This document shows positions 5,571 through 18,744 of a DNA stretch of 64,000 nucleotides, one piece after another. The notes under the pieces were generated by a model, which saw only the letters and a program-made list of their open reading frames with translations, made no database searches and was not told the DNA's origin. The DNA comes from Rhizobium sp. BK196. GTDB taxonomy: Bacteria; Pseudomonadota; Alphaproteobacteria; Rhizobiales; Rhizobiaceae. A program made the translations under genes and the position numbers. The stretch is from assembly GCF_014193255.1 (NCBI RefSeq), contig NZ_JACHZB010000002.1, positions 868,001-932,000 of the forward strand, read 5' to 3'. Position 1 is the stretch's first letter, and each line of letters begins with the position of its first letter.

Positions 5571-6667
5571 AGGCGCTGCTGCTGGTTTCCGAACTGGAGG
5601 ACTACACTATTTCCTTCGCAAGCGGCGTTGCGCGACATATGCCGGTCGTCCTTGGCGTCCCGCGCCGGCGCTATGCTCATCTTGCTTCCTGGTTCGATCC
5701 GGCCGTCGACCTTCACCTTCTTGACTGGCCACGACATCGGTCGCTTGCCAATCCCTGGTTCCTGCATCAGCTCACGCGCCTCATCCGGCACGAGCAGCCG
5801 AACCTCATTCATCTCTTGAGCAATACTACGCTGTGGTTGAACTTTGCCGTGCCGTTCTGGCGACCGGTCCCGCTCGTGACCACCGTTCATGATGTGGAAC
5901 TGCATCCCGGCGATTCCGATACGCGTACGCTGCCCGGCTGGGCACCGGGATTAATGGTGAGACAGTCCGGGCATGTCGTCGTGCATGGCGAGGGACTGAA
6001 GCGGATGGTCCTCGATCGATATTCAAAATCTCCAGACTGCGTGCATGTCCTGTCGCATCCCGCCATCCATCGCTATGCGGAACTTGCTCGGCGGCAAAAG
6101 CTGGCGCGGCGTGCCGCCGATGGAACTGTGCGCGTTCTGCTCTTTGGGCGAATTTTCGCTTACAAGGGTTTGAAGCAACTGATCCGTGCCGAGGCGATAC
6201 TTAAGGATGCGCTCCCCAATCTGCGCATTACGGTCGCAGGCCGCGGCGATGATCCCTGGGTCTTCCGGCCGCTCATGGGTGAAGCTGGCCGCTACGACAT
6301 TCGCAACCGTTTTATCGAAGACGAGGAGGTCGCCCAGCTCTTCCTCGATGCCGATATCGTTGTCCTTCCCTACACGGAAGCATCCCAAAGCGGCGTGCTC
6401 AACCTTGCTGCGGCCTTCGGCAAACCCGTTATCGTAACTGACGTGGGCGAATTGCGAGCGACCGTTCAGCCCAACGGACTGGGAATGGTGGTTCCGCCTG
6501 ATAATGCGGAAGAGCTCGCGAAAGCGATCCGTACATTGGCGGATAATAACGATCTTAGAAACGATCTCGGCACCAAGGCACTCGAATGGGCCACAGGACC
6601 GAACTCGCCCGAACAGGTCGGCGCCCGGGCAGCCGCTCTTTATCGCGAGGTGGTCGGATCATGCTGA
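5567..6667 (+). CDS. family 4 glycosyltransferase
   Basis: A 366-residue GT-B fold protein. The C-terminal half contains LLFGRIFAYKGLKQLI, where the donor site begins, and VVLPYTEASQSGVLNLAAA followed by GKPVIVTDVGE, the usual GT4 nucleotide-sugar binding region, although the E-x7-E motif is imperfect. The N-terminal half has TTVHDVELHPGD, a typical acceptor-side loop. It overlaps both neighbours by a few bases, pointing to translational coupling in the exopolysaccharide operon. It is probably soluble or peripheral, extending the repeat unit on undecaprenyl diphosphate. Sugar specificity is unknown. Confidence 0.88.
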   Translation: MKALLLVSELEDYTISFASGVARHMPVVLGVPRRRYAHLASWFDPAVDLHLLDWPRHRSLANPWFLHQLTRLIRHEQPNLIHLLSNTTLWLNFAVPFWRPVPLVTTVHDVELHPGDSDTRTLPGWAPGLMVRQSGHVVVHGEGLKRMVLDRYSKSPDCVHVLSHPAIHRYAELARRQKLARRAADGTVRVLLFGRIFAYKGLKQLIRAEAILKDALPNLRITVAGRGDDPWVFRPLMGEAGRYDIRNRFIEDEEVAQLFLDADIVVLPYTEASQSGVLNLAAAFGKPVIVTDVGELRATVQPNGLGMVVPPDNAEELAKAIRTLADNNDLRNDLGTKALEWATGPNSPEQVGARAAALYREVVGSC

Positions 6668-7803
6668 TGAAAGTACTTATGGATGGTCATCCGTCAGTGG
6701 TGCGGAACACGACAAGGGTCCGCCATTATGTTCCGGGTGGCTGCGAGAACGGCGGCGGTATTGGCAGGCTGATCGGATATCTGACCAGCACGGCGAAAGA
6801 AGGCGGGGCAGAACACGCCGTCACCGACACCAGAGGGCCTCGATGGTCTGCCGCGTCGTCGTCTCTGCGTCTGCTGGGCGCAATCCTGACAATGGCGAAG
6901 GATCGAGTCGTCGATCCGAAACGCATTCACCATATCCATGTCGCAGGCCGCGGCAGCACCTTCCGCAAGCTGATCCTGACTGAAGCTGCCCATTTGCTCG
7001 GGTGCTTTCACATATTGCATCTACACGACTACGATTATGCCGGCGATTTTGCTGCACGCTCGCCGCGTCAACAATCGCTGATACGCCGGATGTTTCAACG
7101 TGCTGATTGCGTCGTGGCGCTGGGTGAGCGTGATCGCGTGACGCTTGCGACACGTCTGGGCGTAGACGAGCGCCGCCTCGTGATCGCTCACAATTGTGTC
7201 CCCGATCCCGGGGCACACAACATTCGTGCCGGCGAGCCGCCGTTGATCATATTTCTCGGCCGGCTGAGCGAACGCAAAGGCGTTCCGGAACTTCTGCTCG
7301 CCCTTAGCCATCCGGTCATGAAAGAGCTTCGCTGGCGCGCCGTGCTGGCAGGAGACGGGCCTGTCGAAGATTATCGCCGCCAGGCTACGGATATGGGCCT
7401 TTCAGGCCTGGTGGACATGCCGGGATGGCTTGGCGCCGACGAGGCGCGCGCGCTGTGTGCACGTGCCGATATCCTGGTCTTGCCCTCGCATGCCGAAGGC
7501 TTGGCGATGGCGGTGCTCGAAGGGCTTTCCCACGGGCTTGCTGTTGTCACCACGCGCGTTGGGGCGCACGAAGAGGTCATTTCCGACGGTGAAACCGGTG
7601 TCTTCGTCCCTGTCGGAGACAAGGATGCCTTGGCAGCGGCCCTTGCGAGACTGGTTGCGGATCCAGATGTCCGCAGCCGCCTCTCGACGAGGGCACGCGC
7701 CCATTATCTCAACCATTTCAGTATGAAGGCCTATATGCGGTCGATGGAAAAACTCTACGAAACCATCTCCGCGCAACCTCAAGCAAGGGTTAGCGCAAAA
7801 TGA
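6661..7803 (+). CDS. family 4 glycosyltransferase
   Basis: A 380-residue GT-B protein if begun at the ATG at 6661, which overlaps the previous stop by seven bases; an upstream in-frame ATG at 6586 would add 25 residues lying wholly inside the previous gene and is less likely. The N-terminus has GGCENGGGIGRL, a glycine-rich acceptor loop. The donor domain shows FLGRLSERKGVPELL and PSHAEGLAMAVLEGLSHG, the E-x7-E pattern of retaining GT4 enzymes at about residues 278-287. It overlaps the co-polymerase start by four bases. It should add one sugar of the repeat unit in the cytoplasm. Confidence 0.9.
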   Translation: MLMKVLMDGHPSVVRNTTRVRHYVPGGCENGGGIGRLIGYLTSTAKEGGAEHAVTDTRGPRWSAASSSLRLLGAILTMAKDRVVDPKRIHHIHVAGRGSTFRKLILTEAAHLLGCFHILHLHDYDYAGDFAARSPRQQSLIRRMFQRADCVVALGERDRVTLATRLGVDERRLVIAHNCVPDPGAHNIRAGEPPLIIFLGRLSERKGVPELLLALSHPVMKELRWRAVLAGDGPVEDYRRQATDMGLSGLVDMPGWLGADEARALCARADILVLPSHAEGLAMAVLEGLSHGLAVVTTRVGAHEEVISDGETGVFVPVGDKDALAAALARLVADPDVRSRLSTRARAHYLNHFSMKAYMRSMEKLYETISAQPQARVSAK

Positions 7804-10010
7804 CAATTTCGACTTTTCCGCCAGACCGCAACGTGCCGCTCCCGGCGGTCCATTACGAACCCCGCTTTCAGACGGAGATGAAATCGGAGGAGTTTGATCT
7901 AACGTCTGGTTTACGTTTGATCCGTCGGCGGCTGGTGATGATCGTTGCTGTGACGGCGGTGCTGATGGCGGCGTCGATCGTGCTGATCTCGGGATTGCAA
8001 CCGAGCTATCATGCCGGGTCCCGGCTGATGATCCACAAGCCCCTGGCAACTGCGCTGAGCAGCGGCGATGCCGGCAACAATGCGCCGCTCAACGTCACCT
8101 CCGAGACCGAGCGGCTTCTGTCGAGAAGCGTGGCCGAGCGGGTCATCGGCGACTTGCGGCTCGACGAGCGGCCGGAGTTCAACCCGGCCCTGCGCCAAGC
8201 CTCCGTCGTCGATGAGATCAGGGCAACCTTGCGCGGCTTGGTGAGCGGCGATAAGCCGTCGCAGCCGGCAGGAGACAATGTCGAGCCGATCATCCAGGCC
8301 TATTACAAGGCGCTGAGTGTGTGGCGCGACGGCCAGAGCGACGTCGTCCAGATCGGCTTTACGGCCGGCGATCCAGAACTCGCAGCCGCCGTCCCGAACC
8401 GGCTCATCAGCATCTATCTCGAAGAACGCAAGGACAGTATCCGCGCCAGCCTGGACACGGCGCAAGCATGGATCGGCCAGCGCATCGCCGAACAGCAGGA
8501 TCGCGCCAAAGCCGCCCGCGATGCTGCCGACACCTATCAGCAAACGATGGGCGTCGTTCAAAACGACGATGATCAGAGCGAACAGATCAAGGCGATCGTC
8601 GAGCTGAGCGACCGGCAGGCGAAGATCGGACAAAGCCGCGCCGACATCAAGGATACGATCGCCGCGCTGGAAGCGGCCGACGATCCTTCGCTTGCCGCCC
8701 AGACCAAATCCGTTCCCGACAGCATCGGCGTGATGCAGGCCGACCTGCGGACCCAGCAGCAGGATCTGGCCCGCCTTCTCGACATCTATGGCACCGATGC
8801 TCCCGCCGTGGTCGACCTGCGGGCAAAAATCGACAGGTCCCGCGCCGATCTCAGCACGGCGGTCGACCGGTACCTGCAGTCCATGCGCGCCAGGCTGACC
8901 GCTCTGGATGACGAGGATCGCACGGTCCGATCGGCCCTGACGGCCGCCTATGAGCAGCGCTCCCGCTCTTTCCTGGCGCAGACCGAGCTTACGCGGCTGC
9001 AGCGCATCGCCGACAAGGAGCAGACGGCCCTCGACAAGCTCGAGGAGCAGCGCCGCGGCCTCGTCGGGCAAGCCATGCTGCCGGGCGCCGAACTGGAGGT
9101 TCTGTCACCGGCTGCAGTGCCGCTCACCCCCCAGGGACGCAGCCGGCTGTTCTATCTGATCGGTGCCTTCTTCGCTTCCATCTCGGTTGCGGTAACGGCT
9201 GCCTTCGTGGTCGAGATGATGGACAGGACGGTGCGCAGCTTCGACCAGATCACCGGTATGGCGCGCATCGTGCCGGCCGGCTTCGTCCCGCACTTGCGAC
9301 GCAAAGACCGCAGAGACCCTTCAAGGCTGTTCGGGCAAACGCAGATCGGCATGTTCGACGAAGCGATCCGCACCATCATGATCTCGCTCAAACAGACCAA
9401 TGGCGGAAAGCTGCCGAACAGTATTGCCGTGACCTCGGCCCACAGCGGCGAAGGCAAGTCGCTGGTGGCCGGATCGCTGGCAATCGAACTCGCCGCCAAC
9501 GGCACGCCTGTGCTGCTCGTCGACAGCGACATCCGGCGCGGACATCTCGACACGTTGTTCAGGTCCGGCCTGACGCAGGGGCTAAACGAGTTCTTGAGTG
9601 GGCAGGCAGCTCTTGAGGACATCGTCCATCACCACCCGAGCGGCATCGACTTCATCCCGGCCGGCAATCCCGGTCTGCAGCGGCGCATGCGGTCGGCCGA
9701 CCTGGCCGAGATCATCGAGATGGCCCGCGCCAGAGGCCAGATCGTTATCTTCGACAGCGCCCCAGTGCTCGCCTCGGCCGATACGATGCATCTGACGGCG
9801 CTTGCCGAGCGAACGCTGATGGTCGTGCAATGGGCAAAGACCAGCCGCCGGGCCGCAGAATTCTGCCTGCAGCAGCTCAGGAGCGCCCGCAATGCCGACA
9901 TCGTCGTCGCCATCAACAACGTCAAACCCAAACGTCACGCCAAATACAATTTCCGCGACTCCGAATTATACGCAAGGTCGTTGATGAAATATCACGATAT
10001 CAAAGCGTAA
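7800..10010 (+). CDS. polysaccharide co-polymerase / BY-type tyrosine autokinase (Wzc-like), copy 1
   Basis: A 736-residue inner-membrane protein that controls chain length and export of polysaccharide. Order: polar N-terminus, TM1 near 43-64, a periplasmic Wzz-like region with long coiled coil (about 225-430), TM2 near 450-472, and a cytoplasmic kinase domain. The kinase has Walker A SGEGKS (549-554), Walker A' LLVDSDIRR with D575, D577 and R579, and Walker B VIFDSAP with D652, the BY-kinase set. The C-terminus carries only a few tyrosines (KYNF, ELYARS, KYHD), fewer than the tyrosine cluster of E. coli Wzc. Residues 33 to about 731 are nearly identical to the second half of the fusion gene at 14023-17460. 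It ends the glycosyltransferase operon. Confidence 0.93.
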   Translation: MTISTFPPDRNVPLPAVHYEPRFQTEMKSEEFDLTSGLRLIRRRLVMIVAVTAVLMAASIVLISGLQPSYHAGSRLMIHKPLATALSSGDAGNNAPLNVTSETERLLSRSVAERVIGDLRLDERPEFNPALRQASVVDEIRATLRGLVSGDKPSQPAGDNVEPIIQAYYKALSVWRDGQSDVVQIGFTAGDPELAAAVPNRLISIYLEERKDSIRASLDTAQAWIGQRIAEQQDRAKAARDAADTYQQTMGVVQNDDDQSEQIKAIVELSDRQAKIGQSRADIKDTIAALEAADDPSLAAQTKSVPDSIGVMQADLRTQQQDLARLLDIYGTDAPAVVDLRAKIDRSRADLSTAVDRYLQSMRARLTALDDEDRTVRSALTAAYEQRSRSFLAQTELTRLQRIADKEQTALDKLEEQRRGLVGQAMLPGAELEVLSPAAVPLTPQGRSRLFYLIGAFFASISVAVTAAFVVEMMDRTVRSFDQITGMARIVPAGFVPHLRRKDRRDPSRLFGQTQIGMFDEAIRTIMISLKQTNGGKLPNSIAVTSAHSGEGKSLVAGSLAIELAANGTPVLLVDSDIRRGHLDTLFRSGLTQGLNEFLSGQAALEDIVHHHPSGIDFIPAGNPGLQRRMRSADLAEIIEMARARGQIVIFDSAPVLASADTMHLTALAERTLMVVQWAKTSRRAAEFCLQQLRSARNADIVVAINNVKPKRHAKYNFRDSELYARSLMKYHDIKA
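7896..9994 (+). repeat. 2.1-kb direct repeat, copy A (co-polymerase/kinase coding segment)
   Basis: This stretch aligns without gaps to 15286-17384 at a constant offset of 7390 bases. By eye there are about 20 mismatches over 2099 bases, roughly 99% identity, with several crowded into the first 30 bases. Only about five amino acids differ (I/L, T/M, N/G, N/D, G/S). Similarity ends abruptly at both borders. No terminal inverted repeats or target duplications mark it as a transposon. Confidence 0.95.
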
Positions 10011-10134
10011 ATCTGAATATTACCAATGGTTTAATAGACCTTATCGCCCGCCGTCGCTTAGGCAGCAGGCGAACGCCATCAATCATCGCAGCCAGTACCC
10101 GCGGGATCAGCACACTAGGGACAGGAGAAGAGCG

Positions 10135-10714
10135 ATGGCGGACTATTACATCGCCACTGATGGAAGCGACATCGCCAAAGGCAGCTTGTCAGCACCATGG
10201 AAGACGATCAGCCGCGCCAAGCAGGCCAACTCAGGCCCGACGATCAGGTCGTGGTAAAGGTACGCACCAGAGCAGATCGATAACGAAGGATAGTGCGGCG
10301 GACCCGGAATCGAGCCATCAACGACATCAGCACCAACGGCTACGTGAACAAGGGTGTGAAGTGGTACAACAATATCACGTTCAACGGCACTCCGCGCGAG
10401 GCGTCGGTACTTTCGGACGGCCGTTCGTCGGACGCTGCCGACGGGAACCTGCTTGGGTTTGATCCGCTGCTTTCCGACCCGGCCACGGAAAATTTCCACC
10501 TGAAGCCGGCTTCGCCGGCCATCAATGCCGGAACGTCCGCTTTCGGGCTCGGATACGTCGCCCTGACGGGCAGGCCCGTGTGAACGGCAAGGTCGACATC
10601 GGAGCAGATGAGGCCGATTCCGATGCAGACACGCCGCCGAATGCCCGAGAACGTTTCTGGCTCGGCACCGCGATGAATACGGTCGCCGAGAACATTCTCG
10701 CCAACGGCGGCTAG
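10135..10714 (+). pseudogene. decayed right-handed beta-helix (polysaccharide lyase/glycanase-like) gene
   Basis: A good ribosome-binding site (AGGAGAAGAGCG) precedes ATG at 10135, and the product starts MADYYIATDGSDIAKGSL with SAPWKTISRAKQAN, the usual start of secreted or exported beta-helix proteins. The frame stops after 40 codons. Shifting frame restores RPDDQVVVKV and, after a further shift, YAPEQIDNEG. A later frame (from about 10293) gives NGYVNKGVKWYNNITF, DPLLSDPATENFHLKP and SPAINAG, and a last shift gives KVDIGADEAD, a typical beta-helix C-terminus. So at least three frameshifts and a large internal deletion are visible; intact relatives are several hundred residues. Such enzymes often trim the polysaccharide made by the neighbouring cluster. 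Confidence 0.75.
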
Positions 10715-10769
10715 CTCATAGTGAGCTCAGTGGCGTCGATAGCAGCAGCTCGGAGCGTGATATAGGCGG

Positions 10770-12353
10770 TTAGCGGCAAGGCAATGGATCCGTCGACGGC
10801 GCGCGTCGCCAGATCTGGAAAGCCTGAAAGGTCTCGGTGATTTGAAAATGTTGGTCGGACAGGAACGCGGTCAGGATCCCTTCCGGATCGTAGATATCAG
10901 ACTTGCTGGTGACGATGAGGGTTGGAGCCTCCAGTGTGGAAGCAAAGCCTGGCCGCGGCTCGGAGACATAGAGCGCACTGCCGCACTCGCGGCCGAGCGG
11001 CACGCTGTAAACGAGAGCGCCGAGCGCGTCGGCATTCCACCAGACGCGATCACCCTCAGCGAGAGCTGAGCGCACGACGCCGGCCGCGGAGCGATAGTCG
11101 TCCTTGGCGTGGCGGGGAGCGAACCTGATGCTCGCGCCGGAGGCCAATGCCATCATCAGAAAGCCAAGCACCACGAGCTTGCCGGCGGGCCTACGCCAGA
11201 GCAACGCCACGCCCGCCGCCTGCAGCGCCAGGATGACCGCGATTGCGGGCGCAAGATGGCGACCGACGACGCGCCAATGCAGAATATATCCGGCAATCAG
11301 GATCAGTGCAGCAGCGGACGTGAAGGCGATCGCGCACGCTGCCAGCGTGCGAGGCGGAATATTTCGAATGGCCTGGATCAACCCCGCCAACGTAACCGCC
11401 GCGACCAGGATGGCGTAGCTCGCCAGAGCAACCACGTAAGAAAAGACGATCGCCCCCTCCCCTGTGCGCAGATCCGTGCGGCCCGGCCCGAGGCCTGCAA
11501 AACCGAACAGTTCGTAGGCCGAAAAAAACAGAGTCCGCGCATCGGTCGTCGCCACTTTGGTGCCGCCTGCCCCTCCGATCACCGTCCAGAGATAATAGAG
11601 CCCGAGCGGCGCCATCACGACCACGAGGAGAACCGACGGCCCGATGAGATGGCTGGCTGCAAGCCGGCGACTGCGCCAGGATACGGCGCACGCGGCGGCG
11701 GCAACCGCGGCTGCGGCCCATATCGCGCCGAGCAAGCTGCTTCCGGCAAGAGCGATAAGCCCGAACGCGAGCAGCCATGCTTGACAGCGGCTAAGAAGGG
11801 GGACCTCTGCGCCGCGATCGCTCGCTGCAACGACCGCGCGCTCGAGCAGGCCGAAGACCATGAGGCTCGCCCCGATCTGCATACCATAGGGCCGCGCCTC
11901 ATCGATGTAGTACCACAGGAAGGCGCTGGTCCCGGCCACCAGAAGGCGATCAACCCGAGCGTTAGCGAAAATGTAGAGGCCAGGAATAAGCCAAAGCAGG
12001 TTCATCACCCTGAGAGCGATCTCGCCGTCGCCTGCGATTTTCTCCCAAGCCCAGATCGCCACGAGGAAAAACGGCATCTGCGCATCTGAACCGGTCTCTG
12101 CGACCATGCGGGCCAGAAACGCCCCGAAGTGCGGCTCCGCTGCGCGCCAGGCGGTGTTGGCTTCGTCTATCCAGTAGCTCTGTCCGCTGATCGCGATACA
12201 CAGCGCCCCCAAGGTGGCACCCATGGCAACCCACGAAATGACCTGCCACGACGACGGATGCGACCTCTGTGAAAACGATCCTGGTTTATTTACCGGGTTC
12301 GATGGTGCGGCGATCTCCGCGCCCGTCGTCAGATCGAGGTCAGATATGCCCAT
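10770..12353 (-). CDS. multi-pass membrane glycosyltransferase, GT39/ArnT-like
   Basis: About 527 residues from the ATG at 12353 (MGISDLDLTTG); an upstream in-frame ATG at 12401 would give 543 residues, and neither has a strong ribosome-binding site. Many hydrophobic helices span the protein. The first external loop carries SYWIDEANTAWRA, resembling the acidic D-E catalytic motif of GT39/GT83 enzymes that use polyprenyl-phosphate sugars on the periplasmic side. A soluble C-terminal domain of about 100 residues (KDDYRSAAGVVRSALAEGD onward) follows the last helix. It is the only minus-strand gene in this part of the polysaccharide locus and faces the GtrB-like gene at 12834, a possible supplier of its polyprenyl-phosphate sugar donor. 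The specific reaction is unknown. Confidence 0.7.
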   Translation of the reverse strand: MGISDLDLTTGAEIAAPSNPVNKPGSFSQRSHPSSWQVISWVAMGATLGALCIAISGQSYWIDEANTAWRAAEPHFGAFLARMVAETGSDAQMPFFLVAIWAWEKIAGDGEIALRVMNLLWLIPGLYIFANARVDRLLVAGTSAFLWYYIDEARPYGMQIGASLMVFGLLERAVVAASDRGAEVPLLSRCQAWLLAFGLIALAGSSLLGAIWAAAAVAAAACAVSWRSRRLAASHLIGPSVLLVVVMAPLGLYYLWTVIGGAGGTKVATTDARTLFFSAYELFGFAGLGPGRTDLRTGEGAIVFSYVVALASYAILVAAVTLAGLIQAIRNIPPRTLAACAIAFTSAAALILIAGYILHWRVVGRHLAPAIAVILALQAAGVALLWRRPAGKLVVLGFLMMALASGASIRFAPRHAKDDYRSAAGVVRSALAEGDRVWWNADALGALVYSVPLGRECGSALYVSEPRPGFASTLEAPTLIVTSKSDIYDPEGILTAFLSDQHFQITETFQAFQIWRRAPSTDPLPCR

Positions 12354-12401
12354 CCACGTACAAGTCCTAAAACCGTGTCCAGCGCGCCGCCGGCAATACA
12401 T

Positions 12402-12833
12402 CTATCCCGGCTTAGATCAGCGCTAAGACTAACGCTTTCTCCGTTCGAGCAACAATCAGCACAAAGTGGTACGCGTACGTCTTATGGCTCGCTTTCGACC
12501 AGCCGGCATAAAGAATAAAGTTCATTTCTACAAAGGCTTGTGCGTCATCATAGACGGAGATTCCGAGAGAAGTTCGATGAGCCTTGAAGCTTGCAAGTTC
12601 GGCAAGCTGGATGGAGCCGGGCATGGTCAAGAGTAAGACTATTGTAAAGAGTGATCGGATCGAGCGGCTTCCTCAAAACACCTGTGGGCGGCTCCGCTGT
12701 CTCGGCGAAGACTTTTATCAGGCCCGATCCCTATTCGGCATGTGCCTGCAGTTGCTCGATCGGCTGAGCGCCGATCGTCGTGCGGTCGCTGGCACGCATG
12801 GTCCAACCCATTTCATCACATCGGGGGCTTGAA
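12402..12833. other. gap between the divergent GT39-like and GtrB-like genes
   Basis: About 430 bases with no convincing gene. Short frames such as 12412-12630 on the minus strand have no recognisable features. The stretch presumably carries promoters in both directions. No operator or terminator stood out. Confidence 0.35.
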
Positions 12834-14021
12834 ATGTTGCCGCACAGCACGGAACTCCCCCGCACATGGCCAATTGCTACAACTGATCTTTCGCCCCGAG
12901 GCATGTCCGATACGGAAGGCCTGGTACTGAGTATCGTGGTGCCGGTGTTTAACGAGGAGGAGACGATTGTGCTCTTTCTCCAGGCTCTGGATGCACAGAC
13001 TAACGCGATCCGCAGCGCTCTCGGATCAGGCGGGCAGGTGGAGATTCTCTTCGTCGACGACGGCAGCAGAGATCGCACTGTAGAGATCATCGAAGGCCTC
13101 GTGGCGCAGCGATCGGATGTCGGCCTGATTTGCCTGTCGCGAAACTTCGGCAAGGACGCAGCGCTGGCCGCCGGCCTTGCCCATGCCCGCGGCGACGCAA
13201 TCATCCCGATGGACGTCGATCTGCAGGACCCGCCGGACATCGTTCCTGATATGGTAAGCGCCTGGATGCGCGGCGCAAAGGTGGTCAACGCACGCCGCAA
13301 GAGGCGCGGCAGCGACACCTGGCTCAAGCGCTGGAGCGCCACGGCTTTTTACGGCCTCTATAATCGAATGGCCGATTATCCCATCCAGGACAATGTCGGC
13401 GACTTCCGACTGCTGGACCGCAGCGTCGTCGATGTTCTGAACGGCATGCCGGAGCGCATCCGCTTTATGAAAGGCCTGTTCTCCTGGGTTGGCTTCACGC
13501 AGGCGACGGTCGAATACGACCGGCCGAAACGCACGGCAGGCACCTCGAAATGGGTATATTGGCGCCTGTGGAATTTCGCTTTGGACGGGATCACCGGATC
13601 GACGACGATGCCGCTGCGGATCTGGACCTATGTCGGCCTCGTCGTCGTTTTTCTGGCGCAACTCTACGCGGCCATCATCATCGGGCGAACGCTAATATTC
13701 GGCGTCGATGCGCCTGGTTATGCATCGATAATGGTGGTCATCCTGGTGTTCGGCGCATTCAACATGATCTCCGTCGGGCTCCTTGGCGAATATGTCGGCC
13801 GCATCGCTGTCGAGGTCCGGCAACGGCCGCTTTATCTGGTGGAGCATCTGACGGGCCGAGCCGCTGCCGTGTCGGATAGCGGCACCGTTGCCGATCAGGC
13901 GAGGCGCAGCGCCCCCGCCACCGCCGGCTCTGTGCGACGGGTCGGCATCGCCGCAAGTTCCGCAGTGGCGAGCGCGAGACCGCCGGAAGGCCAGTTGAGC
14001 AGCCAATATCCGGCAGAATGA
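12834..14021 (+). CDS. GtrB/DPM1-like polyprenyl-phosphate glycosyltransferase (GT2)
   Basis: About 395 residues from ATG 12834, preceded by GGGGG at good spacing; alternative starts are 12780 and 12903 (MSDTEGLVLS), the last giving the usual family N-terminus. GT-A motifs are plain: IVVPVFNEEET, FVDDGSRDRT and DVDLQDPPD. The middle has NVGDFRLLDR and the C-terminal part two strong membrane helices, as in GtrB and its relatives, which load a sugar onto undecaprenyl phosphate for later use by periplasmic transferases. The neighbouring GT39-like protein could be that user. A proline/alanine-rich tail of about 50 residues ends the protein. It is followed by one base and then the polymerase fusion, so they are likely co-transcribed. 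Confidence 0.85.
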   Translation: MLPHSTELPRTWPIATTDLSPRGMSDTEGLVLSIVVPVFNEEETIVLFLQALDAQTNAIRSALGSGGQVEILFVDDGSRDRTVEIIEGLVAQRSDVGLICLSRNFGKDAALAAGLAHARGDAIIPMDVDLQDPPDIVPDMVSAWMRGAKVVNARRKRRGSDTWLKRWSATAFYGLYNRMADYPIQDNVGDFRLLDRSVVDVLNGMPERIRFMKGLFSWVGFTQATVEYDRPKRTAGTSKWVYWRLWNFALDGITGSTTMPLRIWTYVGLVVVFLAQLYAAIIIGRTLIFGVDAPGYASIMVVILVFGAFNMISVGLLGEYVGRIAVEVRQRPLYLVEHLTGRAAAVSDSGTVADQARRSAPATAGSVRRVGIAASSAVASARPPEGQLSSQYPAE

Positions 14022-14022
14022 C

Positions 14023-17000
14023 ATGGTGGATAAGGCTTGCTACCCGGCAATCTACAGCCCCAGTGTCCTCATGCCTTGGCGTTCGATGGAATGCGTCGGT
14101 GTCATCATTGCGCTGCTCCTTCTGAGCGGTTGCGTTTTCCCTCTGATCGATCGCGATGGCTACCTGGATGCCAGTGAAATGGCGACTCTTCGCCTGCTTG
14201 GGATGCCTATCTATATGATTTCTCTTGGGCTCTTGGCTCGAAATCAGGCAGAGCTGCTGGTCGCCATCCGCCGCAGCCTGCCGTTCGTTGTGCTCCTCCT
14301 TTTACCGCTTGTCTCGGTGCTGTGGTCGCCCAGCCCCGCTCTCACCCTGCAGCGGGGCGTCGCGCTCGTTCTCTCGGTATCGCTTGCGTATCTTCTCGCC
14401 ATCCTGTTCACGCCGCGGCAATTCCTATTGCTGACGGTCGTGGTGCTCGGCTCCGGCATGGCGTTCAGTCTTTTGATGGCTGTGGCATGGCCCAGTCGCG
14501 CGTTCACCGTGGGCGAGAGCTCCCTGAGAGGGGTCTTTGACAACAAGAACGCGCTCGGGTGGAACGCCGCAATCGCGACTTTCGCATGCAGCGTGATGGC
14601 AGCGGATCGGCGGGCGGGGCTGAGAATCGTCAGCATACCGCTGCTGTGCGCCAGTCTCGTTTGCCTTGTCGCGTCTCAGTCGATGACGGCCATGACCTCG
14701 CTGGCCAGTGCGGTGGTGGCCACGGTTTTCTTCCTTGCTCTATCAAAGACCCGCGATCTCGGACGGGTGACCCTCGTGCTAGTCTGTCTGCAATTGGTCG
14801 CGCTGGTCCTTGTAGGCCTCAGCGAACTGCTCGTTCCCATGCTCGAAGCGCTGGGCAAGGATGCGACGCTGACCGGCCGTGTTCCGCTCTGGCGGGAAGT
14901 GGATCACGCGATTGGAAGGCGGTTGTTGTTCGGGTACGGATATCAGGCCTTCTGGGCCGACTCCAACGCCGATGGCTGGCACGTCCGAGCCGCGGCGGGG
15001 TGGCCGGCGCCGCACGCCCATAATGGATTTCGCGACACATTGCTAAGTCTCGGGCTCCTGGGCTTCATCCCCCTGGTCTGGACCATCGCCCGCGCAGTGC
15101 GGCAGGGAGCGGCGCTGCTATGTGACGCTCCCGAGGAAGGCTGGCTGTGGCTGAACGTACTGGTCATCATGTTCCTGGTGATGAACCTCACGGAAACGAT
15201 CATCCTCACTCAGAATAGCATTCTCTTCGTCCTGTTTGCGACTGCCGTGATTATGTTCGCGATCCGGTTTCCCACCGAAGCGAGAGATCTAACCTCCGGG
15301 TTACGTTTGCTGCGTCGGCGGCTGGTGATGATCGTTGCTGTGATGGCGGTGCTGATGGCGGCGTCGATCGTGCTGATCTCGGGATTGCAGCCGAGCTATC
15401 ATGCCGGGTCCCGGCTGATGATCCACAAGCCCCTGGCAACCGCGCTGAGCAGCGGCGATGCCGGCGGCGATGCGCCGCTCAACGTCACCTCCGAGACCGA
15501 GCGGCTTCTGTCGAGAAGCGTGGCCGAGCGGGTCATCGGCGACTTGCGGCTCGACGAGCGGCCGGAGTTCAACCCGGCCCTGCGCCAAGCCTCCGTCGTC
15601 GATGAGATCAGGGCAACCTTGCGCGGCTTGGTGAGCAGCGATAAGCCGTCGCAGCCGGCAGGAGACAATGTCGAGCCGATCATCCAGGCCTATTACAAGG
15701 CGCTGAGTGTGTGGCGCGACGGCCAGAGCGACGTCGTCCAGATCGGCTTTACGGCCGGCGATCCGGAACTCGCAGCCGCCGTCCCGAACCGGCTCATCAG
15801 CATCTATCTCGAAGAACGCAAGGACAGTATCCGCGCCAGCCTGGACACGGCGCAAGCATGGATCGGCCAGCGCATCGCCGAACAGCAGGATCGCGCCAAA
15901 GCCGCCCGCGATGCTGCCGACACCTATCAGCAAACGATGGGCGTCGTTCAAAATGACGATGATCAGAGCGAACAGATCAAGGCGATCGTCGAGCTGAGCG
16001 ACCGGCAGGCGAAGATCGGACAAAGCCGCGCCGACATCAAGGATACGATCGCCGCGCTGGAAGCGGCCGACGATCCTTCGCTTGCCGCCCAGACCAAATC
16101 CGTTCCCGACAGCATCGGCGTGATGCAGGCCGACCTGCGGACCCAGCAGCAGGATCTGGCCCGCCTTCTCGACATCTATGGCACCGACGCTCCCGCCGTG
16201 GTCGACCTGCGGGCAAAAATCGACAGGTCCCGCGCCGATCTCAGCACGGCGGTCGACCGGTACCTGCAGTCCATGCGCGCCAGGCTGACCGCTCTGGATG
16301 ACGAGGATCGCACGGTCCGATCGGCCCTGACGGCCGCCTATGAGCAGCGCTCCCGCTCTTTCCTGGCGCAGACCGAGCTTACGCGGCTGCAGCGCATCGC
16401 CGACAAGGAGCAGACGGCCCTCGACAAGCTCGAGGAGCAGCGCCGCGGCCTCGTCGGGCAGGCCATGCTGCCGGGCGCCGAACTGGAGGTTCTGTCACCG
16501 GCTGCAGTGCCGCTCACCCCCCAGGGACGCAGCCGGCTGTTCTATCTGATCGGTGCCTTCTTCGCTTCCATCTCGGTTGCGGTAACGGCTGCCTTCGTGG
16601 TCGAGATGATGGACAGGACGGTGCGCAGCTTCGACCAGATCACCGGTATGGCGCGCATCGTGCCGGCCGGCTTCGTACCGCACTTGCGACGCAAAGACCG
16701 CAGAGACCCTTCAAGGCTGTTCGGGCAAACGCAGATCGGCATGTTCGACGAAGCGATCCGCACCATCATGATCTCGCTCAAACAGACCAATGGCGGAAAG
16801 CTGCCGAACAGTATTGCCGTGACCTCGGCCCACAGCGGCGAAGGCAAGTCGCTGGTGGCCGGATCGCTGGCAATCGAACTCGCCGCCAACGGCACGCCGG
16901 TGCTGCTCGTCGACAGCGACATCCGGCGCGGACATCTCGACACGTTGTTCAGGTCCGGCCTGACGCAGGGGCTGAACGAGTTCTTGAGTGGGCAGGCAGC

Positions 17001-17460
17001 TCTTGAGGACATCGTCCATCACCACCCGAGCGGCATCGACTTCATCCCGGCCGGCAATCCCGGTCTGCAGCGGCGCATGCGGTCGGCCGACCTGGCCGAG
17101 ATCATCGAGATGGCCCGCGCCAGAGGCCAGATCGTTATCTTCGACAGCGCCCCGGTGCTCGCCTCGGCCGATACGATGCATCTGACGGCGCTTGCCGAGC
17201 GAACGCTGATGGTCGTGCAATGGGCAAAGACCAGCCGCCGGGCCGCAGAATTCTGCCTGCAGCAGCTCAGGAGCGCCCGCAATGCCGACATCGTCGTCGC
17301 CATCAACAACGTCAAACCTAAACGTCACGCCAAATACAATTTCCGCGACTCCGAATTATACGCAAGGTCGTTGATGAAATATCAGAATTTCGAGATATCG
17401 CCGATCGCGGCATGGTTCACCTTGCGTTGGCTGCACCCGTATCTGGGGATGCAAAAATGA
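14023..17460 (+). CDS. Wzy/O-antigen-ligase-type polymerase fused to co-polymerase/BY-kinase (copy 2)
   Basis: A single 1145-codon frame. Residues 1-421 are a polytopic membrane protein with about ten to twelve helices and PHAHNGFRDTLLSLGLLG, the conserved loop motif of the Wzy_C/O-antigen ligase family. At residue 422 it changes without a stop into a Wzc-like co-polymerase: TM, coiled-coil periplasmic part, second TM and a kinase with Walker A SGEGK at 938-942, D964/D966/R968 in Walker A' and D1041 in Walker B. Residues 1121-1145 form a unique tail that ends GMQK. Residues 422 to about 1120 match the gene at 7800-10010 almost perfectly. The polymerase half ends after a last helix, so the junction is cytoplasmic on both sides. 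Whether the fusion is made and active is untested; a rearranged or misassembled locus is possible. Confidence 0.85.
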   Translation: MVDKACYPAIYSPSVLMPWRSMECVGVIIALLLLSGCVFPLIDRDGYLDASEMATLRLLGMPIYMISLGLLARNQAELLVAIRRSLPFVVLLLLPLVSVLWSPSPALTLQRGVALVLSVSLAYLLAILFTPRQFLLLTVVVLGSGMAFSLLMAVAWPSRAFTVGESSLRGVFDNKNALGWNAAIATFACSVMAADRRAGLRIVSIPLLCASLVCLVASQSMTAMTSLASAVVATVFFLALSKTRDLGRVTLVLVCLQLVALVLVGLSELLVPMLEALGKDATLTGRVPLWREVDHAIGRRLLFGYGYQAFWADSNADGWHVRAAAGWPAPHAHNGFRDTLLSLGLLGFIPLVWTIARAVRQGAALLCDAPEEGWLWLNVLVIMFLVMNLTETIILTQNSILFVLFATAVIMFAIRFPTEARDLTSGLRLLRRRLVMIVAVMAVLMAASIVLISGLQPSYHAGSRLMIHKPLATALSSGDAGGDAPLNVTSETERLLSRSVAERVIGDLRLDERPEFNPALRQASVVDEIRATLRGLVSSDKPSQPAGDNVEPIIQAYYKALSVWRDGQSDVVQIGFTAGDPELAAAVPNRLISIYLEERKDSIRASLDTAQAWIGQRIAEQQDRAKAARDAADTYQQTMGVVQNDDDQSEQIKAIVELSDRQAKIGQSRADIKDTIAALEAADDPSLAAQTKSVPDSIGVMQADLRTQQQDLARLLDIYGTDAPAVVDLRAKIDRSRADLSTAVDRYLQSMRARLTALDDEDRTVRSALTAAYEQRSRSFLAQTELTRLQRIADKEQTALDKLEEQRRGLVGQAMLPGAELEVLSPAAVPLTPQGRSRLFYLIGAFFASISVAVTAAFVVEMMDRTVRSFDQITGMARIVPAGFVPHLRRKDRRDPSRLFGQTQIGMFDEAIRTIMISLKQTNGGKLPNSIAVTSAHSGEGKSLVAGSLAIELAANGTPVLLVDSDIRRGHLDTLFRSGLTQGLNEFLSGQAALEDIVHHHPSGIDFIPAGNPGLQRRMRSADLAEIIEMARARGQIVIFDSAPVLASADTMHLTALAERTLMVVQWAKTSRRAAEFCLQQLRSARNADIVVAINNVKPKRHAKYNFRDSELYARSLMKYQNFEISPIAAWFTLRWLHPYLGMQK
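15286..17384 (+). repeat. 2.1-kb direct repeat, copy B (inside the fusion gene)
   Basis: Second copy of the segment at 7896-9994, same orientation, no gaps. The borders are the GATCT at 15286 and ATCA at 17381-17384; sequence outside is unrelated between copies. If 2100 bases are removed the flanking polymerase frame and the terminal tail stay in phase, which would give a polymerase of about 445 residues, a normal length for the family. Confidence 0.95.
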
Positions 17461-17640
17461 CGCAAAACGCTTCGCTCCCCCGCATGGCAGGTAAGGCCGG
17501 AGCCCCCCGTTCAAGCTGCAAGGCACCGCCCCGTCGATGTATTCGGCAAGGCATTCCGCCTGACTGACGCGGCGCAGCGCCCGTCCCTTGCAGCATCAGC
17601 TTGTCAGAAACAGCGTTCGTATTCGAGTTGGAGAGCGATC
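17461..17640. other. short gap with a possible gene remnant before gmd
   Basis: An ATG at 17457 overlaps the fusion-gene stop as ATGA and opens a frame of about 35 codons ([15 protein letters not shown] onward) that ends at a TGA near 17566. The coupling arrangement resembles an operon junction, so this may be the head of a deleted downstream gene. The rest up to gmd shows nothing clear. Confidence 0.3.
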
Positions 17641-18744
17641 ATGGATACCGGAATGAGACAGAACAGGAAAGTTGCACTAATTACCGGCGTAACGGGTCAG
17701 GACGGTGCGTATCTGGCCGAGTTGCTGTTGGATAAGGGCTATATTGTTCACGGCATCAAGCGGCGTTCGTCGTCCTTCAACACCAATCGCATCGAACACC
17801 TCTACGAGGATCCTCATGTCGACAATCCGCGTTTCATCCTGCACTACGGCGATATGACGGATGCAACGAACCTCATAAGGGTCGTCCAGGAAACGCAGCC
17901 CGACGAAATCTATAATCTTGCCGCACAGAGCCACGTCCAGGTCTCTTTCGAGACGCCGGAATATACCGCCAACGCGGATGGAGGCGGCACGTTGCGGCTG
18001 CTTGAAGCCATTCGCCTGCTGGGCATGACCAAGAAGACCCGTTTCTACCAGGCATCCACCTCCGAACTCTACGGCAAAGCGCAGACGGTTCCACAGAACG
18101 AGACGACGCCCTTCTACCCTCGATCCCCCTATGCCGTTGCCAAGCTCTATGCCTACTGGATCGTCGTCAATTATCGCGAAGCCTATGGCATGCATGCCTC
18201 GAACGGTATTCTGTTCAATCACGAAAGCCCGATCCGCGGCGAAACCTTCGTAACGCGCAAGATCACTCGGGCGGCCGCAGCCATCCATCTTGGCCTGCAG
18301 GACCGGCTCTATCTCGGCAATCTGGATGCTAAGCGCGACTGGGGACATGCGCGAGAATATGTCCGCGGCATGTGGCTCATGCTGCAGCAGGACGAACCTG
18401 AGGATTATGTTCTTGCGACCGGCGAAACGCACACCGTTCGCTCCTTTGTCGAGAAGGCCTTTGCCAGGCTGGGCATGCCGATCGATTGGCGTGGGGAGGG
18501 TATCGACGAAAAGGGATATGACAAGCTCTCCGGCCGATGCGTGGTAGAAATCGACCCCGCCTACTTCCGCCCCACTGAAGTCGACCTTCTGCTTGGCGAT
18601 CCGACAAAGGCGCATACAAAACTCGGCTGGAAACACGAGATCACTCTTGACCAGCTGGTTTCGGAAATGGTTCGCGAGGATTTGAAAGTCATGGCCCGCA
18701 ATGTTCCGTCGGTCGGTGCGAACAAGGGCTTGGTTCATGCCTGA
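17641..18744 (+). CDS. gmd: GDP-mannose 4,6-dehydratase
   Basis: A 367-residue extended SDR that converts GDP-D-mannose to GDP-4-keto-6-deoxy-D-mannose in the cytoplasm. The NADP motif GVTGQDG is at 16-22, HYGDMTD near 68-74, STSELYG near 139-145, and the catalytic Y164-x3-K168 sits in [25 protein letters not shown] and [17 protein letters not shown] are near-invariant Gmd stretches. Length matches the family (about 350-375). The stop overlaps the fcl start by eight bases, so the two steps to GDP-fucose are coupled. It closes the polysaccharide locus and feeds it a nucleotide sugar. Confidence 0.97.

Follow-up and report, generated by a model that had tools for sequence, protein, structure and literature searches.

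An in-frame polymerase/co-polymerase gene in Rhizobium and its near-identical free co-polymerase twin

Polymerases of the Wzx/Wzy pathway act together with an oligomeric co-polymerase, and it is not settled how many of them belong to one co-polymerase ring or whether the polymerase sits inside it. What, then, should be made of a gene in which these two partners are written as a single chain? Such a gene lies at 14023..17460 in the window, by which we mean the whole 64,000-nucleotide stretch of Rhizobium sp. BK196 analyzed here (RefSeq assembly GCF_014193255.1, contig NZ_JACHZB010000002.1, positions 868,001 to 932,000 of the forward strand). The original prediction, made from the letters of the window, described this fusion. 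The in-frame joint is real, but a near-identical free co-polymerase gene nearby had been missed. Since the co-polymerase half of the fusion is a duplicate of this free neighbor and has been kept near-identical to it in 5 of 5 genomes, we read the fusion as half of a two-gene system. With two partners covalently joined by evolution and a free copy of one of them kept, the locus could offer a natural test in soil bacteria of the idea that one polymerase serves a ring of eight. A 2025 review asks for work on exactly this stoichiometric interplay of polymerase and co-polymerase (PMC12004945).

The joined frame and its two halves

The single frame of 1145 codons, claimed to join about 421 residues of polymerase in-frame to a co-polymerase with a bacterial tyrosine (BY) kinase, is open as described, and both folds are predicted from it. 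Its parts, and those of its free twin, are as follows.

14023..17460, + strand: fused gene, polymerase plus co-polymerase/BY-kinase, 1145 residues (P0001; open frame)
14023..15285, + strand: polymerase half, residues 1-421, WaaL/ExoQ type
15268..15321, + strand: junction, residues 416-433, polymerase tail FPTEAR followed by co-polymerase DLTSGLRLLRRR (DNA alignment)
15286..17457, + strand: co-polymerase/BY-kinase half, residues 422-1145
16825..16851, + strand: Walker A, SAHSGEGKS, residues 935-943 (read in sequence)
16900..16926, + strand: Walker A', VLLVDSDIR, residues 960-968 (read in sequence)
17131..17154, + strand: Walker B, IVIFDSAP, residues 1037-1044 (read in sequence)
17385..17460, + strand: C-terminal tail of the fused copy, unlike that of the free copy (sequence comparison)
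7800..10010, + strand: stand-alone co-polymerase/BY-kinase gene, 736 residues (intact frame)
15286..17384, + strand: duplicated segment, fused copy (DNA alignment)
7896..9994, + strand: duplicated segment, stand-alone copy (DNA alignment)

The polymerase half scores 57.5 bits against PF04932 (Wzy_C / O-antigen ligase; cut-off 31.7) over residues 209-350, its predicted structure matches the whole WaaL-like membrane fold over residues 17-417, and R286, H333 and R337 are invariant in 38 aligned sequences (that of the window plus 37 from 120 listed relatives). Family score, fold and invariant residues are what it shares with the WaaL/ExoQ/Wzy family. It differs in that the relatives listed are as long as a polymerase by itself, the exception being P0123, a partial sequence of the same fusion (the search was limited to 232-737 residues). 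The names of these relatives and the gene cluster suggest an ExoQ-like polymerase role. PF04932 has 7 matches in this genome, 5 of them over the cut-off and the fused gene included, and with the fused protein as query there are 5 matches in this genome, 1 covering the polymerase half.

In the predicted structure, residues 421-1119 match the Wzc fold including the kinase domain, and in a hydropathy plot two membrane helices flank a long extracytoplasmic part. The motifs that we take to be Walker A, A' and B, numbered from an alignment to BceF, can all three be read in this half, which bears out the claim that they are intact. Fold, helices and motifs are those of a Wzc-type PCP-2a co-polymerase with a BY-kinase. 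What sets this protein apart is the whole polymerase at its N-terminus, the loss of the 32 residues with which the free version begins and the small number of tail tyrosines. The Wzz domain PF02706 reaches 20.3 bits in the free copy against a cut-off of 25.5 and is not listed for the fused protein. By profile and predicted fold, each half falls within a known family.

A Lys/Arg-rich linker of 15 residues separates the final helix of the polymerase from the opening helix of the co-polymerase (hydropathy plot), and homology to the free gene starts at 15286 in the DNA alignment. The end of the polymerase and the start of the co-polymerase are both predicted to be cytoplasmic, in agreement with the earlier argument that topology permits such a joint. 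A stop at the junction, which the original prediction had named among the observations that would speak against a fusion, is seen in 0 of 10 carriers. By sequence, a tryptic peptide FPTETGDLTSGLR of the R. mesosinicum HU56 protein would span the joint; in this strain and in R. viscosum a trypsin site coincides with it (FPTEAR / DLTSGLR). We also considered a separate co-polymerase start inside the fused frame and did not adopt it. In 3 of 4 genomes, none of the in-frame start codons close to the junction has a Shine-Dalgarno-like core ahead of it, which is not decisive because neither genuine start in the window has such a core. In R. setariae, AGGA precedes two internal start codons near the junction. 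A promoter scan of 9900-18000 gave no signal above chance.

Ten genomes carry the joined frame, with an identical junction in 10 of 10; four of the frames are open throughout, five are open to the end of a contig and one is frameshifted in the polymerase. Nine of these carriers, this genome included, are among the 148 genomes of the genus that were searched. The whole frame is present in this genome (G000), R. mesosinicum HU56 (G049, 96% identical) and R. viscosum (G147, 92%), as well as in a tenth carrier from another genus, R. setariae KVB221 (G461, 77%), found among 394 sampled genomes of the family; an order-level sample of 397 genomes showed no further carrier. Past codon 421 the frame runs without a stop to the contig end for 103 codons in G117, 58 in G129, 27 in G127, 8 in G134 and 45 in Rhizobium sp. 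P32RR-XVIII (G093). The frameshift, at polymerase codon ~172, belongs to Sinorhizobium sp. B11 (G116). Its near relative G117 does not have it, so the B11 frameshift is either young or a base-call error. Two further fragments of the same fusion, P0002 and P0123, are in the protein databases. The gene calls P0003 (R. viscosum) and P0006 (R. setariae) place the start of the protein within the final helix of the polymerase, although in both genomes the frame stays open across the entire polymerase, so gene calling hides the fusion.

In the four whole carriers, the ratio of nonsynonymous to synonymous divergence (dN/dS) ranges over 0.11-0.20 in the polymerase half and 0.14-0.20 in the co-polymerase half of the fusion; for a stretch of 80 codons about the junction it is 0.07-0.22. 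The two remaining forward frames of the polymerase half are interrupted by 16-19 and 6-7 stops. Judged by these ratios, purifying selection acts on each half and on the junction, as expected of a working protein; B11, with its frameshift, is the exception.

Concerted evolution with a free co-polymerase gene

The two copies of the duplicated segment form a direct repeat of 2,099 bp with 21 mismatches and 0 gaps (99.0% identical), 7.39 kb apart. The free gene begins 32 codons before the shared segment, and these N-terminal residues are missing from the fused half. Where it can be read whole, in 5 carriers, the free gene has no internal stop.

Within a genome, the fused and free copies are 99.00% (this genome), 99.33% (R. 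mesosinicum), 99.62% (R. viscosum), 99.33% (B11) and 99.76% (R. setariae) identical, whereas co-polymerase identity between genomes is 77-96% (four genomes). In a tree of 18 DNA sequences (5 fused, 5 free and 8 from genomes with a single gene, omitting the five carriers whose contigs are broken inside the repeat), each fused copy groups with the free copy of its own genome (5 of 5 genomes, 99-100% support), and an approximately unbiased (AU) test rejects a tree that unites the fused copies (p 3.5e-5). The two co-polymerase copies show concerted evolution, and the locus is a clear case of it between two bacterial genes with different architectures. Silent sites are homogenized too, with a synonymous divergence (dS) between copies within a genome of 0.006-0.028 (four genomes), and recombination is the likely direct cause of the identity of the copies. 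Of the mismatches that do occur, the outer 290 bases contain 14 of 14 in B11, 5 of 5 in R. setariae, 12 of 21 in this genome, 3 of 8 in R. viscosum and 1 of 14 in R. mesosinicum.

How the two genes may work together

If the fusion is half of a two-gene system, the reading that we favor, and consider about as probable as its negation, is that the fused product would act as the one polymerase-bearing member of a co-polymerase ring, with the free gene providing the remaining members. Since the frame runs through the junction without a stop, every molecule of the fused polymerase would carry a co-polymerase domain, and this tether would place the polymerase at the co-polymerase ring, as in WzyE-WzzE of the enterobacterial common antigen. 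There, according to PMC10030265, about eight WzzE bind one WzyE in the ring lumen, and an antibody to a C-terminal tag on WzyE is centered on the cytoplasmic face. The two systems would be alike in pairing a polymerase with a co-polymerase at about one polymerase per ring of eight, but WzyE and WzzE are two separate, kinase-less proteins, whereas here one covalent chain is accompanied by a free co-polymerase copy. A ring of eight fused chains would contain eight polymerases. The published models have room for one, as in an AlphaFold3 model of moderate confidence in which the Wzc cavity holds a single Wzy (PMC12881504), so that the free gene would supply about seven subunits. That the free gene has been kept, and kept near-identical, agrees with a mixed ring of this kind. 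Recombination between the copies would keep the ring interfaces alike, and the kinase domain may regulate ring assembly as it does in Wzc. In two-hybrid assays, PssT of R. leguminosarum needs its C-terminal part to interact with PssP (PMC4182512), and this is the end at which the fusion joins; PssT and PssP are separate proteins, likened to the fused halves by role. The fuller picture, of a hard-wired ring with one polymerase-bearing subunit to about seven free ones, of gene conversion keeping the two genes interchangeable, which would let mixed rings form at all times, and of a cassette that spread between Rhizobiaceae lineages and replaced the separate polymerase, is a tentative one that probably fails in at least one of its parts.

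Several observations weigh against a mixed ring. The fused half has no counterpart of the 32 N-terminal residues and its tail is different in 4 of 5 genomes, either of which could hinder mixing with free subunits, and the linker has a predicted local distance difference test (pLDDT) score below 50 in the predicted structure. Neither protein reaches the cut-off of 411.7 bits for TIGR01005 (NCBIfam eps_transp_fam), with 121.5 bits for the fused and 126.4 bits for the free one, and the tails hold few tyrosines, 4 in the last 41 residues of the fused and 3 in the last 21 of the free protein. The frameshift in B11 may mean that the polymerase is dispensable there, unless the base call is wrong. The 1:8 model itself comes from a kinase-less co-polymerase at low resolution and from an AlphaFold3 prediction. 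Finally, silent sites are near-identical too, and recombination alone therefore explains the identity of the copies, with no need for selection for co-assembly.

This last point is shared with an explanation that we regard as unlikely, though a serious contender, in which the fusion is a tolerated accident: the polymerase would work alone, and the co-polymerase half would be a passenger kept intact by conversion from an essential free copy. The copies are indeed identical at silent sites as well, and in three of five genomes most mismatches are near the repeat ends, the pattern expected of conversion tracts. The polymerase side of the joint, however, is outside the repeat, and yet the frame has been kept in all carriers, with the low dN/dS given above at the junction of the four whole ones (0.07-0.22). 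The tail specific to the fused copy, moreover, is conserved in four genomes (this one, R. mesosinicum, R. viscosum and B11) and absent in R. setariae. A stop at the junction would free the polymerase from its passenger, and none of the 10 genomes has acquired one. If instead the fused protein formed a homo-oligomeric ring of its own, with one polymerase per subunit and perhaps for another polymer or chain length, then the ring-forming Wzc fold predicted for each chain would be put to its usual use, and rhizobia can hold two co-polymerases, PssP and PssP2 having been speculated to play opposite roles in chain length (PMC4182512). Near-identical copies would nevertheless be expected to mix, and the published models leave room for one polymerase per ring, which makes a separate ring improbable.

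Direct repeats that are 2,099 bp long, 99% identical and 7.39 kb apart could also act as a recombination switch, letting the polymerase cassette loop out, restoring one co-polymerase gene and stopping or changing the polymer. The free copy keeps the 5' neighbor and the fused copy the 3' neighbor (this genome, R. mesosinicum, R. viscosum and B11), as integration by a single crossover gives, and trees of flanking genes do not unite the carriers. Against a switch, no cassette-free member of the carrier clade is found among the matches listed from the 148 genomes of the genus, co-polymerases outside the carriers are at most 72% identical among the matches listed, and the cassette is old within the carriers, with a silent divergence close to that of its flanks; we hold this explanation to be very improbable. 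Five draft assemblies have contigs that break off within the repeat, which might raise the suspicion of an assembly or sequencing artefact, to which we give hardly any credence. The fusion is intact in the 3-contig assembly of R. viscosum, it is joined across the junction in the complete plasmid record CP091033 of B11 (also a 3-contig assembly), and independent assemblies share the junction, so that for the carrier clade an assembly artefact is rejected. A mixed ring of fused and free subunits remains the reading that we prefer.

The locus, its origin and other fusions

The genes around the two copies are the following.

6586..7803, + strand: GT4 glycosyltransferase, 5' neighbor of the free co-polymerase (Pfam; B11 annotation)
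10770..12401, - strand: membrane protein of unknown family in the inserted cassette (no Pfam match)
12780..14021, + strand: GT2 glycosyltransferase directly upstream of the fused gene (PF00535, 111.7 bits)
17641..18744, + strand: GDP-mannose 4,6-dehydratase (gmd), 3' of the fused copy (PF16363, 529 bits)

The true start of the GT4 gene is probably nearer 6661, and one base separates the stop codon of the GT2 gene from the start codon of the fused gene. Of 8 unfused loci fetched, 5 were examined, and in 5 of 5 the single co-polymerase gene is flanked by GT4 and gmd, with gmd likewise as its 3' neighbor. A separate polymerase with 46-49% identity is encoded there on the opposite strand. In the carriers, the free copy retains its GT4 neighbor and the fused copy retains gmd in this genome, R. 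mesosinicum, R. viscosum and B11; the examined stretch of R. setariae contains no gmd. Between the copies are the membrane protein, which is also present in 5 of 5 other carriers examined (R. mesosinicum, R. viscosum, B11, R. setariae and P32RR-XVIII), the GT2 gene and the new polymerase, and in B11 also a beta-helix protein. The ancestral polymerase is absent from the examined stretches of this genome, R. mesosinicum, R. viscosum, B11 and R. setariae. The locus probably arose by recombination of a cassette into the co-polymerase gene. The cassette would have brought a new polymerase together with a co-polymerase lacking its 5' end, so that a copy came to lie on either side; a single crossover of the gene with a circle bearing polymerase and truncated co-polymerase would be expected to give this layout.

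In P32RR-XVIII, the ancestral unfused polymerase persists as a broken gene beside the fusion (L046 5491-6680, contig C19), which is likely an intermediate stage of polymerase replacement. In the same genome, the far end of contig C45 (L045) holds only the 3' end of a co-polymerase (codons ~695-735) near a piece of fcl, in a gene order unlike that of the other carriers, due either to rearrangement or to an assembly join. The ~680-690 bases that follow the free co-polymerase gene in R. mesosinicum, R. viscosum and B11 are missing from the window at 10303-10308, and this gap is the site of the beta-helix gene in B11.

In a polymerase tree built from 12 of the proteins returned by searches and 5 of the 8 unfused loci, the fused polymerases group in a single clade (94/83), beside P0124, an unfused metagenome protein of 428 residues that is 75% identical. 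P0124 shares the last helix, after which it has its own short tail, so the polymerase lost little beyond such a tail on fusion; a sequence search of the PDB with P0124 returned nothing useful. An independent fusion in each species is not favored, given the one polymerase clade, with its moderate support, and the identical junction. Two flanking-gene trees (GT4) do not unite R. setariae and P32RR-XVIII with the other carriers (p 0.04 and 0.0002), which suggests cassette transfer, or loss elsewhere. The silent divergence of the cassette is close to that of its flanks, and for this reason we set aside a recent horizontal transfer; an old transfer and loss elsewhere both remain. R. viscosum is grown for a viscous exopolysaccharide that contains, according to PMC9823382, galactose, glucose and mannuronic acid. 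We claim no link between this polymer and the locus, as the cluster in the window has genes of GDP-fucose type (gmd by Pfam, fcl by the B11 annotation).

The supposition that no one-chain polymerase/co-polymerase of this layout had been well described agrees with the matches listed here: among them, neither the literature nor the protein databases yielded one outside the carrier clade. As the listings give the best matches, a rare fusion may have escaped them. When candidates of 630-2004 residues sharing words with the polymerase half were scored, 4 of 7992 matched, 3 being the same fusion (P0002 among them) and 1 a beta-helix chain (P0122), and no open frame longer than 746 codons was found among the best Wzy_C matches listed from 398 Pseudomonadota genomes. 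Other long frames were considered as candidates for a polymerase/co-polymerase fusion and discarded. A 1068-codon Wzz frame in G1226, the one above 1000 among the Wzz matches listed, is an ordinary Wzc-like gene whose frame is merely open upstream. A 1182-codon polymerase frame in G751, the one long polymerase frame in the order-level sample, is a polymerase/beta-helix chain. Long Wzc-like frames in G143, G101 and G086 have a C-terminal glycosyltransferase instead (by Pfam in G143 only).

Two other kinds of fusion came to light. Rhizobial Wzc-like co-polymerases of 1083-1095 residues with a C-terminal glycosyltransferase, another co-polymerase fusion type, are found at L096 2820-6071 and, on the minus strand, in L097 and L099; the L096 protein has Wzz, GNVR, CbiA and GT2 over the cut-off in Pfam, and those of L097 and L099 were read by eye. 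On the polymerase side, an ExoQ-type polymerase and a parallel beta-helix are joined in one chain in P0122 (1151 residues; Pfam), with a genome copy at L105 295-3750 on the minus strand of G751, and in L098 related frames lie together. This is a second kind of polymerase fusion, and in B11 a beta-helix gene is the neighbor of the free co-polymerase.

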